From Absidia repens (lineage: Eukaryota > Mucoromycota > Mucoromycetes > Mucorales > Cunninghamellaceae), in assembly GCA_002105175.1 (NCBI GenBank), contig MCGE01000012.1:372001-436000 (forward strand): 64,000 bases of DNA. Reading direction: 5' to 3'. Each line of letters starts with the position of its first letter. Positions within the stretch are counted from its first letter, which is position 1. The position numbers were made by a program, and so were the translations under genes. The notes under the pieces are model-generated. The model was not told the DNA's origin, searched no databases, and worked only from the letters and a program-made list of their open reading frames with translations. Positions 41,631 to 62,000 of the stretch are shown in pieces.

Positions 41631-42544
41631 TTGGACTTGTGTGTTTGTACGTCTACTAGAATAGTATAGTATATATCTTCCCGACTGTAGTATAGCGATA
41701 CCTATATTATTTTTATCTCATTTGTCCCCTTTTATAAAATCGCTATATATTTCGTGTACAAAGCAAATATTCATGATTAAATAAATAAAATATTGGAATA
41801 TTATTTGATAGCCTCGTCACAAAGGTTTTACTTTTTGGTGCAATGCAGAACAAGGTGATTGTGTGTGTTGGTACGTGTTTGTTTGTGTGTTTGTATTTGC
41901 ATGAGGTTTTGTGTGGTATTTTTGTTTATTTTAGTTTTTTTCGCACGGAATTGACCCGCCATAATTTTTATGTATGCTTAATTTTCAGGGACCAAAATCT
42001 ACAGTAAATATAAAAAACAATAATCAGATTATACCTTGGTTAGCTTATTATTATAACAAAGGGGTATATATGGTTAACTTATTATTCTGGCAAAGGGGTA
42101 TATATTTGATTTTTACAGTGAACGGTGATTTTCTATTTCCCAAAATCTCCAATGATAGATAAATGGAAACTTGCAATCAAAGAGCTCCCCAATGCTGTTT
42201 GATACCTGATGAATTAGAAATGGCCTCGGCTCGGTAATACAAGCGCCCGCAGTAGCGCTATTTTAAAAATAACTTTTGACTCTCCTTTTATCATTCAAGA
42301 ACATTTGTTCAACGGTGATTGGCTGGTTTTAAATTCCATCAATTTTTAAATGAGGACAACCGACTTTTTTTCTTCTTTTCTTTTTTCTTTAGACTTCCTA
42401 TCTTTTAAAAAACTTTATAACATATATTTGATCTATTTTCTTCCATTGGGTGGTGGTAATAGATCTGTTATTTTAGTTTTTATTATACTCTTTTGATTTT
42501 TGTTATAAACACACTATCTCTCTTGATTTACTTTCACCGCACTA
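41631..42544. other. Spacer with the HAC1-type promoter and leader
   Basis: Left: poly(A) region of the 782-aa gene (AATAAATAAAATA near 41780). Right: promoter of the bZIP gene, with a CCAAT box (ATTGG in GTGATTGGCTGG near 42317), TTTTAAAA and TATAA near 42403-42420, and a leader with no upstream ATG between 42442 and the start codon. Confidence 0.5.
42442..42457 (+). promoter_or_regulatory. 5'-leader element complementary to the HAC1-type intron
   Basis: TCCATTGGGTGGTGGT lies 88-103 nt upstream of the start codon. It is the exact reverse complement of 43384-43399 inside the unconventional intron: 16 of 16 Watson-Crick pairs, GC-rich in an AT-rich context. In S. cerevisiae HAC1 a comparable leader-intron duplex blocks translation of unspliced mRNA. 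It works here only if transcription starts upstream of 42442, which the sequence cannot prove. Confidence 0.75.
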
Positions 42545-43700
42545 ATGACTCAGCAAGCTCCTATGTCTGATGCTTTGGCCGCATTGTTGTCACTGCCTAT
42601 GGACTTCACCATTGATCCTTTGGTGACACTTCATTCATCTTCCAACGAAAACTTGTTTCCTCCTGAATCTGAATTGACTTCCTTCTCTCCTGATCAACAA
42701 CATGAAGACTTCAGTAGTCTTACAAGTTCTTCTCCTTCTTTGGCTTCTTTATCTGACTCCTCTTTTGGCAACATTAGTCCTTCTTCTGAAAAGAAAACTG
42801 CTAGAAACAAACCTGTCATTAAGAAATCAAGGCTCTCGTTGGAAGATAAAGATCAAAAGACGAAAGAAAGGTAAAGAAGATACATTCATTTTAGTATATT
42901 GCGCTTTCATACTCACTCTTTTTGTTTTTCATTTATCAGAATATTACGAAATAGAGCAGCTGCTCAAGAATCCCGCGACAAGAAACGACGTTATGTGGCA
43001 GATTTGGAAAGCAACAATGAACAATTACTTACCGAAAACAAAACCATGAACAAACGTGTCAAATTATTGGAAGGTCAGAATCAACGCATGTCAAAACAAT
43101 TATCCGATTTTGCTCATCAAATCGCCGAACTACAACAACAACTGAAAACCTACAGTTCAACGTCATCATCGTCATCATCGTCATCATCCTGTTTACTTGC
43201 TCATGGCTTTTGCGATTCAGCACGGATCGCGAAGAGGATATTTCACATCACTGCACACCATCTATAGTCATTCTTTTAAAACCGCTCAGCACAACAGCAA
43301 CAACACTTCGTTTTTTATATATGTTATACGAATTAATTGATTTGGATACTCTCAAATTGACCCTCTGTTCTCTTCAATGAAAAACCACCACCCAATGGAT
43401 TGAAAACAAACGATGGTCCTTTGCTCTCTGTGTCTTGATATGGAATGATTTGTGTGTCTGTTTATAGCCTTTCTCCCTGCAGCGGAGGTCGTGAAGCAAG
43501 AAACTGATTATGGCATGATACAAAATGGCTGCTCAAATGAAAACAACGACAATGACTTACTACCCTCTCCTATGTTATCACCGCACGCATCGTTATCTTC
43601 TGACGACGAAACTGATGTTAGTGGACCTGTATCTCCTCCAAACCATGGTATTTTCCAATTGGATGATTTATTGGATTGGGAGGGCCAGCAAACTGTATGA
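42545..43700 (+). CDS. hac1: HAC1/XBP1-type bZIP transcription factor of the unfolded protein response
   Basis: Master regulator of the unfolded protein response. Conventional intron 42871-42939. Spliced form join(42545..42870, 42940..43220, 43480..43700), 275 aa; unspliced form ends at TAA/TAG-type stop 43265-43267, 217 aa. An acidic Ser-rich N-terminus is followed by the basic region KERILRNRAAAQESRDKKRRYVADLE, with the NRxAAQxSRxxKK pattern of Hac1/XBP1, then a leucine-zipper (about residues 125-170). Removing 43221-43479 joins ..GFCDS to AAEVVKQETDYG and replaces a basic tail (ARIAKRIFHITAHHL) with an acidic one (SDDETDVSGP..FQLDDLLDWEGQQTV). This is the usual Hac1 logic. No spliceosomal GT donor fits this second junction. 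Confidence 0.93.
43208..43234 (+). promoter_or_regulatory. Candidate Ire1 5' cleavage hairpin
   Basis: Stem of ten pairs (TTTGCGAT with GATCGCGAAG-type partner, three of them U-G) closing a 7-nt loop CAGCACG at 43218-43224. The predicted cut is after loop position 3, between 43220 and 43221. The loop fits the CNG/CNGN consensus except position 6 (C instead of G). Confidence 0.7.
43221..43479 (+). other. Candidate 259-nt unconventional (Ire1) intron
   Basis: Bounded by the two Ire1-type hairpins; length is not a multiple of three, so removal shifts frame into the long downstream open frame exactly in phase. It carries in-frame stops for the unspliced product and a 16-nt element complementary to the leader. 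Length is close to the 252-nt S. cerevisiae HAC1 intron and far from the ~20-nt introns of filamentous Ascomycota. Confidence 0.8.
43384..43399 (+). promoter_or_regulatory. Intron element complementary to the 5' leader
   Basis: ACCACCACCCAATGGA, the exact antisense of leader positions 42442-42457, about 160 nt into the candidate Ire1 intron. Splicing would remove it and free the leader. Confidence 0.75.
43472..43488 (+). promoter_or_regulatory. Candidate Ire1 3' cleavage hairpin
   Basis: CTCC and GGAG pair (plus a U-G pair) around the 7-nt loop CTGCAGC at 43477-43483. This loop matches CNG/CNGN perfectly and equals the metazoan XBP1 3' loop as I know it. The cut is predicted between 43479 and 43480. 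Confidence 0.82.
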
Positions 43701-44509
43701 TTGTGCTCTTTGGTTTTTAGTTAGTTAAGCCCTTTTAGTGATATATTGTTTTTACCTTTTTTTTTTTCTATCCCCATTTTGTCCATATGTTTTACTTGTT
43801 TATTTAGTCCCCTTTTGCCATCCTCATTTCCACATTAATGTCCATTTACTACTCATATCTTATTCTTTTTACAATAAAATACTTCTATCAGATCTTTTCT
43901 TCAAAAAACATGCCCACCAATGCATTTCAAATCCCGCGTACGGTTTTCTCTCATCCTCGTATTTTCTACTCTTTCTTTGAATTTTTTCCCTTATAATGTC
44001 AAATTTTAGGCATGATCTTAGAAAGCTGATGGTTTTTTTTAAAAAATGGCCACCTCAAAAAAAAGCAATGTATAAACATGATATTTCAGACCTTTAAGAA
44101 CAAAACGTGTACATCAGCTTTTTTTTTATATAAAAAAAAAAAAAGTTATCAGCCTAGGATTTAAAACGTATCTGATGTACTAAAAAAGAGAATGATATAT
44201 GCATTTATTTTGTAAAACATTATACCGAAAGCAAGGTAAAGATTTTTACCCCTGGAAACCAGGTCCTGTTTTTTCCTCGTTCCGGTTCCGATATCAAGCG
44301 TAGTTGGTAGATGTAGATGTAGATGTAGATTGTAAGACTTGCAAACGAAGATTAGTTTATGTATTTTTATTTTTATTTATTATTTGTACAATAAAAAGTA
44401 CCGTCCTGTCTTTTTTTTTTTTTTTTTTTTTTTCTGCTTATAATAAGCTCATATTTATACATTCGGTAAGACAATCAAACAATGAGAAAGAATAATGATA
44501 GAAAAAGAC

Positions 44510-60449: not shown

Positions 60450-61075
60450 TTAAATTCCGCTGCGTGGTTTTATTTTCATCTTTTTTTTGGGGATCCCATT
60501 TTTTCCCCTCTCCCTTTCTTTTCTTTTTCTTTTACTCTTCTTTTTGTTTTTCTTCACCATTTAACTTTTTTGAGGTTAAAGTGGATTTGTAATAGTGTCA
60601 GGACTAGTTTAGAAGGGGTTTCAGTTCAGGGTTCGCAAGATGCATGGGGAAACCCGTTCATTTTGGATCCAGGATTTTGAACCACCATTAGTTTGGCTTT
60701 TTGAAGCCTTCGTTTTCATCTACAATCTGAATAAAATATATCTCTTTTTGAATACTTCAATTAAAAGTGACCCATTAGTCCCTCCCATGTTTTGTGCAAT
60801 AGATCCTTTTCGCCTCCCCCTTTGAATAGCTTTGACTGTTGTTGATCCGTCAATAAAAAAAATATATATATATATGGCTCTAGTCTTCCTCATGCCTTGC
60901 CCAGTGTATTATACCCCATTTTACAATTACCCCTTTTAGATTAGTGTTCACCATTCTTCAGAACTCTCATTAGCCTTCCTCAGTTTACTTCCATTAGGTC
61001 CCGTGTTACAATGAAATCCGCACCTTTAGTATAGTATTTACCCACTATGGCTTCATAAAAGATGCCTTTTTATGA
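60450..61075 (+). repeat. Dispersed repeat family, copy D
   Basis: AAATTCCGCTGCGTGGTTTTATT, C/T tract, CACCATTTAACTTTTTTGAGG, TAGTGTCAGGACTAGTTTAG, GATGCATGGGGAAACCC, TTCATTTTGGATCCAG, TGAATAAAATATATC, then tail units with CATTAGTCCCTCCCATG, TTTTGTGCAATAGATCC and TTAGATTAGTGTTCACC. Confidence 0.82.
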
Positions 61076-61459
61076 ATTAACAATAATCTGACCCAGTGAA
61101 TAGTGAGAAATGTTTTTGTTGTAATTGTTTTGTGGGTGATTTTATCAAACACCTAGTTTCTAGCTTAGCATTATCAGTTATCCGTAAATCAATGCTGTGT
61201 GGGAGAATGTAAGTCGTCGTTTCATGGATCCACTTTTTCACCCAAAAATACCTAGAGACTGGTTCGTTTGCATTTTTAGGTCACTTTATATAAAATGCAA
61301 CGCCGTTCCTTTTCAACGCTTCATATCAGTAAGCGTGGACCATGATGTGAGTCTATCCTTTTCTATAAAGTATATATCCTCCAGTAGACTGGATATACCC
61401 CAGCGTATTATTTTCATTCTGTATGATTTAATGAAAGAGAATGTAAAATCATAAACAAG

Positions 61460-62000
61460 CGCCATAGGCAACAAAAATATAAAGGGACAATTGTAAATAG
61501 GAAACTAATACACTGTACAAGGAAAGTAATACATGAGAAAGACACCGAATGAATATCTTTTATTAAAACAAAACAACGGCCAACACTTATTAATAGCAGT
61601 GATGGTAGAGAAAGGAGATCTATTACACAAGACATGAATGAGACTAATGGCATATTTTTTCATTGAATCAAATAAAAAAACGGCATATTTTATTTAGATA
61701 TAGGTACAAGCTAAAGACAAACTAATATTAAACCAAGCTAATGAAGGCTCCAAAAAGTCAACTAATGATGTTTCTAAATCCTAGGTCCAAAATGAAAGGG
61801 TTTCCCCATGCATCTTGTAATCCCTGTTCTGAGGCTCCTTCTAAACTAGTCCTAACACTAATCTAAGATCGTCCTAATTTCAGTGAAGTTGAATGGTGAA
61901 GAAAAAAAGAAAATGAAAAGAGAGAGACAGAGCGGGAAAAAAAAAAAAAAAAAAACAGGGAAAAATACTGGGAATAAATAAAAATGCACGTGGGCGGCAT
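61460..62000 (-). repeat. Dispersed repeat family, copy E
   Basis: Minus strand reads GCCGCCCACGTGCATTTTTATT, C/T tract, CACCATTCAACTTCACTG, TTAGTGTTAGGACTAGTTTAG, GATGCATGGGGAAACCC, TTCATTTTGGACCTAG, ATTAGTTGACTTTTTGG, with tail units including CATTAGTCTCATTCATG. It faces copy D tail to tail. Confidence 0.82.

Follow-up and report, generated by a model that had tools for sequence, protein, structure and literature searches.

Does a HAC1-type gene of the mucoralean fungus Absidia repens keep its unspliced mRNA silent by pairing the 5' leader with the intron that Ire1 removes? The question is raised by a HAC1 gene (42545-43700, + strand, start codon at 42545) in the window, a 64,000-nucleotide stretch (contig MCGE01000012.1 of assembly GCA_002105175.1, positions 372,001 to 436,000) of a 47.4-Mb genome in 79 contigs. 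A G-rich element of the 5' leader (L) and a C-rich element of the predicted Ire1-type intron (I) are exact complements of each other. We consider it fairly probable that an L:I lock silences unspliced HAC1 until Ire1 splicing, with arms that look ancestral and an origin probably separate from that of yeast. A distant fungal branch may also hold the HAC1 message silent until stress, in the manner of yeast.

In the proposed mechanism, L and I of an unspliced HAC1 mRNA would pair over 16 bp, and this duplex would block initiation, keeping the mRNA silent. Excision of the 259-nt intron by Ire1 would take I away with the intron and free the leader, and active Hac1 would be made from the freed leader. 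We infer that L is transcribed and that the duplex forms in cells. Repression of initiation by the duplex is proposed by analogy with yeast HAC1, and it is because of this analogy that a translational lock is the best reading of the locus.

Complementarity of the leader and intron arms

L, TCCATTGGGTGGTGGT, is the reverse complement of I at 16 of 16 positions (coordinates in Table 1); the flanking base on either side is mismatched and the match extends no further. L ends 87 nt 5' of the HAC1 start codon. GC content is 56% in the arms, 28% in the leader (42420-42544) and 39% in the intron. No ATG lies between L and the start codon; the closest upstream ATG is at 42350, and the 192 nt from 42353 to 42544 contain none where about 2.2 would be expected. 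The 16 contiguous leader-intron pairs compare with a criterion of at least 11 for an attenuator, a comparison that presumes L to lie within the leader. A first-pass annotation of this DNA had described the exact complementarity, the GC-rich arms in an AT-rich region, the ATG-free interval and a HAC1 gene with a 259-nt candidate Ire1 intron, and all four observations were reproduced. In the window, six-frame open reading frames (ORFs) that span the arms measure 20-52 aa, too short for protein searches.

A second perfect complement, AT-rich and 12 nt long, connects 42416-42427, in the leader or promoter, with 43317-43328, in the Ire1 intron. This match was rejected: it does not nest with L:I and appears to be due to chance.

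Rarity of the match

The rarity of the match was assessed with shuffled sequences, genome searches and comparisons with other ORFs. No perfect complement longer than 13 nt appeared in 300 dinucleotide shuffles. The exact 16-mer was found at two places in the genome, the L and I of HAC1, which rules out a dispersed element. Perfect inverted repeats of at least 16 nt with a spacing of 300-1500 were surveyed over 264 kb, made up of the window and a further 200 kb. Only 2 of the 219 are complex and at least 50% GC; one is L:I, and the other sits within a longer imperfect inverted repeat. Leader-downstream pairing was also compared at the same geometry for 204 ORFs. HAC1 ranks first by best gapless helix (-35.9; next -28.2), and none of 2993 random segments matched the L:I gapless helix against the HAC1 leader. 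A chance origin of L:I is unlikely, because no other of the 204 ORFs has a gapless leader-downstream helix as strong as L:I; the first-pass annotation had likewise called a chance match very unlikely.

Arm letters in protein models of relatives

Scans of viral and genome contig collections for HAC1 orthologue DNA found none. The arms of relatives were read indirectly, in place of orthologue DNA, from mis-annotated protein models that translate non-coding DNA. Three read-outs were first spotted by eye, and the statistics were run afterwards. Apophysomyces ossiformis P0017 is a shifted-frame read-through of the Ire1 intron (about 155 nt by residue count), RFSTDRDEE...PLKNPPPNGSHV...PFPAAEAV, and includes KNPPPNG; its PPPNG, back-translated as CCN CCN CCN AAY GGN, is compatible at every position with the I-arm sequence CCACCACCCAATGG. 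In the metagenomic protein P0090, which is 89% identical to Umbelopsis isabellina P0085, LGGGIKFI precedes the MSSSTK start, and TTG GGN GGN GGN gives the L arm. In a second metagenomic protein, P0053, ...FIFQLFLLHWVGT precedes MSSTD, CTN CAY TGG GTN GGN (LHWVG) gives the L core, and a pyrimidine-rich run comes before this core as it does in the window. The nearest named relative of P0053 is Dichotomocladium elegans P0096 (81%), making it Lichtheimiaceae-like. An initial search of 73 homologues by pattern matched P0017 alone, the pattern having missed P0053.

A restricted test was made on 68 segments read from non-coding DNA (1124 codons), comprising 63 post-loop tails, 4 upstream extensions and the P0017 intron, the last five of them hand-picked. 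Tails of 3-60 residues were taken with one pattern over 164 proteins, and proteins not fitting the pattern gave no segment. Models with exon 2 present or a vague boundary (P0009, P0011, P0012, P0013, P0014, P0032, P0043, P0044 and P0085) were dropped by name beforehand. The P0017, P0090 and P0053 read-outs are the top three of the 68 segments, at 23.1, 17.5 and 17.0 bits. Shuffled arms equaled them in 0 of 400 trials and, in a larger run, in 2 of 10,000 for the top score and 2 of 10,000 for the top-three sum; these probabilities are a guide only, because part of the segment set was chosen after the leads had been seen. Scoring leader segments with I and intron segments with L gave at best 10.4 bits, as against 23.1. 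No arm is visible in the upstream extensions P0083 and P0034, both of which are short (9 and 13 residues).

Apophysomyces, Dichotomocladium and Absidia belong to the Mucorales, and Umbelopsis to the Umbelopsidales, in another class of Mucoromycotina; P0053 and P0090 were assigned to their lineages by similarity. Provided that the three read-outs are homologous, the arms are older than the split between Mucorales and Umbelopsidales, and judged by these letters they look ancestral to both groups.

Duplex energy

The energy of the L:I duplex is calculated as -30.8 kcal/mol. When the arms were slid along the transcript, L scored -31.7 with I and -17.6 with its next-best partner, while the next-best partner of I reached -12.4. 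By minimum free energy (MFE), 15.3 or 11.7 kcal/mol is needed to open both arms, which leaves a net of about -15 to -19. The duplex energy exceeds the cost of opening the arms, so that L:I would bring a clear net gain.

Evidence against the proposed lock, and alternative explanations

A number of results, given in the following paragraphs, weigh against a leader-intron lock. Among random places of the same geometry, 3 of 2993 beat L:I, all through one identical 22-nt match, and by longest perfect complement HAC1 is second of the 204 ORFs, after a 17-nt T/A run. With bulges allowed, the RNAduplex energy was equaled by 310 of 1498 random segments, and all 8 best ORFs listed (of 204) exceed HAC1. 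The three longest complements in a same-offset scan of 314 positions measure 15, 16 and 34 nt. With up to 2 mismatches, the 16-mer has 61 matches in the genome, against 44 for a reversed control.

In the relatives, a back-translation scan of 131 proteins that included their coding parts was not discriminating: perfect 10-nt matches numbered 1 for L and 1 for I versus 2 and 1 for the reversed arms, and matches with at most 2 mismatches over 14 nt numbered 16 and 65 versus 8 and 47. P0053 fits the 10-nt L core; over 14 nt of L, 2 positions are mismatched. The distance from L to the AUG is 87 nt in Absidia and about 4 and 12 nt in two relatives. Furthermore, all three relatives show a single arm and none shows both, and no covariation is observable. 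The first-pass annotation had named divergence of the arms in related species as a point that would tell against pairing; applied indirectly, this comparison shows one arm in its expected place in each of three models.

The single arms could mean that L and I are conserved separately, L as a promoter or leader signal and I as intron structure or an Ire1-docking element, their complementarity being incidental. L does carry CCATTGG, a CCAAT-like core. We judge this explanation distinctly unlikely, since an exact 16-nt complement between independent elements is improbable and since swapping the arms lowers the best score from 23.1 to 10.4 bits. Alternatively, the duplex might mainly loop the mRNA for recognition or splicing by Ire1, or for targeting to the endoplasmic reticulum, instead of blocking translation. 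L letters stand right before the AUG in two relatives, a position that suits an initiation block, and the effect of pairing tested in yeast is translational in the excerpted text of PMC8881652; a looping role is for these reasons unlikely.

RNA folding also disagrees with the lock. RNAfold gives L:I a probability that rounds to 0.0 in five full-length models that differ in their start and end at 43880; with L:I forced, the two of them tested are less stable by 20.6 or 15.5 kcal/mol. In the MFE structure of the 42420-start full-length model, L (42444-42456) pairs over the start codon with 42534-42547. This disagreement of the full-length models is a caution and not a refutation, because in mRNAs of 1.4 kb the choice of ends affects long-range folding; for an RNA ending at 43500, the cost of forcing L:I is 1.1 or 0.0 kcal/mol.

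The local hairpin between L and the start-codon region suggests another role, in which L masks the start codon and I is a decoy that opens the hairpin, the intron promoting translation of the mRNA that still contains it. The hairpin is the structure that RNAfold prefers in the 42420-start model and in 3 of 3 leader-only folds, and the L/start-region duplex (-17.2 kcal/mol) ranks fifth of the 204 ORFs. Such a hairpin would shut off the spliced, active mRNA; its duplex is also 13.6 kcal/mol weaker than L:I and merely marginally unusual. This role is highly improbable in our view.

Two further points concern Ire1 splicing. The Ire1 5' loop CAG/CACG (slashes mark junctions) departs at position 6 from the CxG/CxGx motif given in excerpts of PMC8881652, which the 3' site, CTG/CAGC, fits. 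A search for a tRNA-ligase kinase found no match, a blank that is uninformative because its controls gave no match either.

A leader-intron lock also depends on L being part of the mRNA. Transcription could start downstream of L, or a 5'-leader intron could affect it, and the complementarity would then have no RNA role. A TATA-like stretch at about 42414-42429 could put the transcription start at or after L, and CTAATGACTCAG at the start codon looks, by eye, like a branch point followed by an acceptor. Against a position of L outside the mRNA stand the 192 nt without ATG upstream of the start codon and the L letters directly before the start in P0090 and P0053. Against a leader intron, Halteromyces P0004 starts MSQQ and has no later Met before the conserved ALAALLSLP; from this model, it was judged unlikely that a 5'-leader intron takes out the first start codon. 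On balance, we regard an L without RNA role as very unlikely.

The start codon lies within ACTAATGACTCAG (42541-42553), a sequence similar to a branch point followed by a 3' splice acceptor. Were a leader intron present at this place, L would come to lie about 10 nt from a second Met codon (42563), a spacing like that in P0090 and P0053.

Structure of the HAC1 gene and its predicted Ire1 intron

The HAC1 product has Pfam matches to bZIP domains, and its closest database match is a protein of Absidia cylindrospora (Mucorales; 96% identity over 74% of the query). A bZIP search of the genome returned one 100% match, HAC1 itself, and two weak matches (39% and 43% identity); because these are weak, the genome offers no close paralogue of HAC1 for comparison. 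With both introns removed, a 275-residue protein ending LLPSPMLSP...DLLDWEGQQTV is predicted, and with the 259-nt intron retained, a protein ending DSARIAKRIFHITAHHL. The CDSA/AEV junction is common to the models of Mucor lusitanicus (P0009) and Hesseltinella vesiculosa (P0011). An Ire1 RNase domain (PF06479) is present in the genome on contig C10, as two adjoining pieces of which the best scores 88.2 bits. These features agree with a HAC1/hacA-type bZIP mRNA that would be spliced by Ire1, its C terminus being swapped on intron removal.

FCDSARI, encoded at the 5' loop, is invariant in 21 of 21 unspliced homologues, a set chosen for alignment; variants beyond these 21 are CGSARIV (Rhizopus) and FRDSARV (Umbelopsis). 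The variant 5' loop may be widespread in Mucorales and Umbelopsis. Loop-encoded SAR recurs in the unspliced Mucorales and Umbelopsis models looked at. When the longer segment 43462-43500 is folded, it pairs otherwise than in the Ire1 3' stem-loop. An Rfam search over 42000-44400 gave 5 matches up to E 10, none of them at gathering score.

Table 1 Features of the HAC1 locus, in window coordinates (slashes mark junctions).
Feature	Coordinates	Strand	Basis or remark
L arm, G-rich 5'-leader element	42442..42457	+	-103 to -88 from start codon; exact complement of I
Start-codon region able to pair with L (competing local hairpin)	42534..42547	+	RNAfold
HAC1 coding exon 1a	42545..42870	+	ORF and homologues
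Spliceosomal intron, predicted, 69 nt, GTAAAG...TATCAG	42871..42939	+	Removal joins KTKER/ILRNR as in homologues
HAC1 coding exon 1b (bZIP)	42940..43220	+	End is GATTCAG at Ire1 5' site
Ire1 5' splice-site stem-loop, CAG/CACG	43208..43234	+	43200-43240 fold, -12.6 kcal/mol
Ire1-type intron, predicted, 259 nt	43221..43479	+	Removal gives single ORF ending 43700
I arm, C-rich element	43384..43399	+	Positions 164-179 of predicted 259-nt Ire1 intron
Ire1 3' splice-site stem-loop, CTCC-CTG/CAGC-GGAG	43473..43487	+	7-nt loop; 43468-43492 fold, -4.5 kcal/mol
HAC1 exon 2, C-terminus LPSPMLSP...DLLDWEGQQ	43480..43700	+	Like M. lusitanicus and Hesseltinella models

Other features of the window

About 220 nt upstream of the HAC1 start, GATTGGCTGG at 42317-42326 was picked out by eye as a reverse CCAAT box. 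At 60508-61930 there is a long nested imperfect inverted repeat with 164-nt arms that are 77% complementary and with more arms inward; three ORFs of 76-96 aa overlap it. By its sequence this repeat looks like a fold-back or MITE-like element.

Comparison with known HAC1 systems

According to excerpts of PMC8881652, the 5' untranslated region (UTR) of S. cerevisiae HAC1 pairs at -38 to -20 with intron positions 764-782 over 15-16 bases (15 predicted pairs, -25.15 kcal/mol), 11 bp are enough for repression, and initiation stays repressed by the duplex until the intron has been excised by Ire1. The same excerpts place C at -23, -27, -29, -30, -32 and -33 of the leader arm and describe the long HAC1 introns of the Saccharomyces clade as uniquely associated with the 5' UTR. 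Absidia and S. cerevisiae are alike in having a 5'-leader element, a long Ire1 intron (259 and 252 nt, respectively), about 16 pairs, and arms outside the translated frame. They differ in the position of the leader arm (-103 to -88 in Absidia, -38 to -20 in yeast) and in its polarity, the yeast leader being C-rich, whereas in Absidia the leader is G-rich and the intron arm C-rich. The yeast attenuator has been functionally tested; the Absidia lock is proposed from sequence.

The arms of Absidia and yeast HAC1 do not look homologous. An independent origin is favored because the yeast leader arm is C-rich and the Absidia leader arm G-rich, and the lock probably arose separately from that of yeast, as judged by comparing leader-arm polarity, not the full yeast sequence. 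The first-pass annotation had proposed either the same lock as in yeast or one evolved independently; polarity points to the second, and its interpretation as a whole is supported in part. A more specific scenario, on which our judgment is evenly balanced, has at least two inventions of the lock. One, with a C-rich leader, would have taken place in the yeasts; the other, with a G-rich leader, would predate the divergence of Mucorales from Umbelopsidales, and its arms would have been kept nearly letter for letter, with a duplex at the approach to the AUG in some lineages and a hairpin switch in Absidia.

Kluyveromyces lactis and Hansenula polymorpha are ascomycete yeasts. Leader-intron pairing is predicted for their HAC1 mRNAs, with introns of 297 and 177 nt, in excerpts of PMC6116095 and PMC10608004, and where these reviews treat such pairing, the excerpts name S. 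cerevisiae, K. lactis and H. polymorpha. K. lactis, H. polymorpha and Absidia, the last being a member of the Mucoromycota, share a long Ire1 intron that is predicted to pair with the leader.

Ire1 splicing of a bZIP mRNA, as predicted for Absidia, is also found in Candida albicans, Yarrowia lipolytica, Cryptococcus neoformans and CTG-clade yeasts. The HAC1/HXL1 introns of the first three measure 19, 29 and 56 nt (excerpts of PMC10608004 and PMC6116095), and those of CTG-clade yeasts range from 152 to almost 850 nt (excerpts of PMC6222058, in which the words 'utr' and 'base pair' are absent). Excerpts of PMC6116095 describe the C. neoformans intron as seemingly not complementary to the leader and discount a leader-intron mechanism in C. 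albicans for its intron size. Among the literature matches listed, titles and starts of abstracts mention no Mucoromycota HAC1 leader-intron pairing; this coverage is partial, and an earlier mention is possible. The lock is known in yeasts, and the proposed Mucoromycota example is probably new and convergent. If the arms are indeed deeply conserved in Mucoromycota, the lock would be a recurrent solution, and the convergence of an RNA-level stress switch would be directly testable by aligning public genomes.
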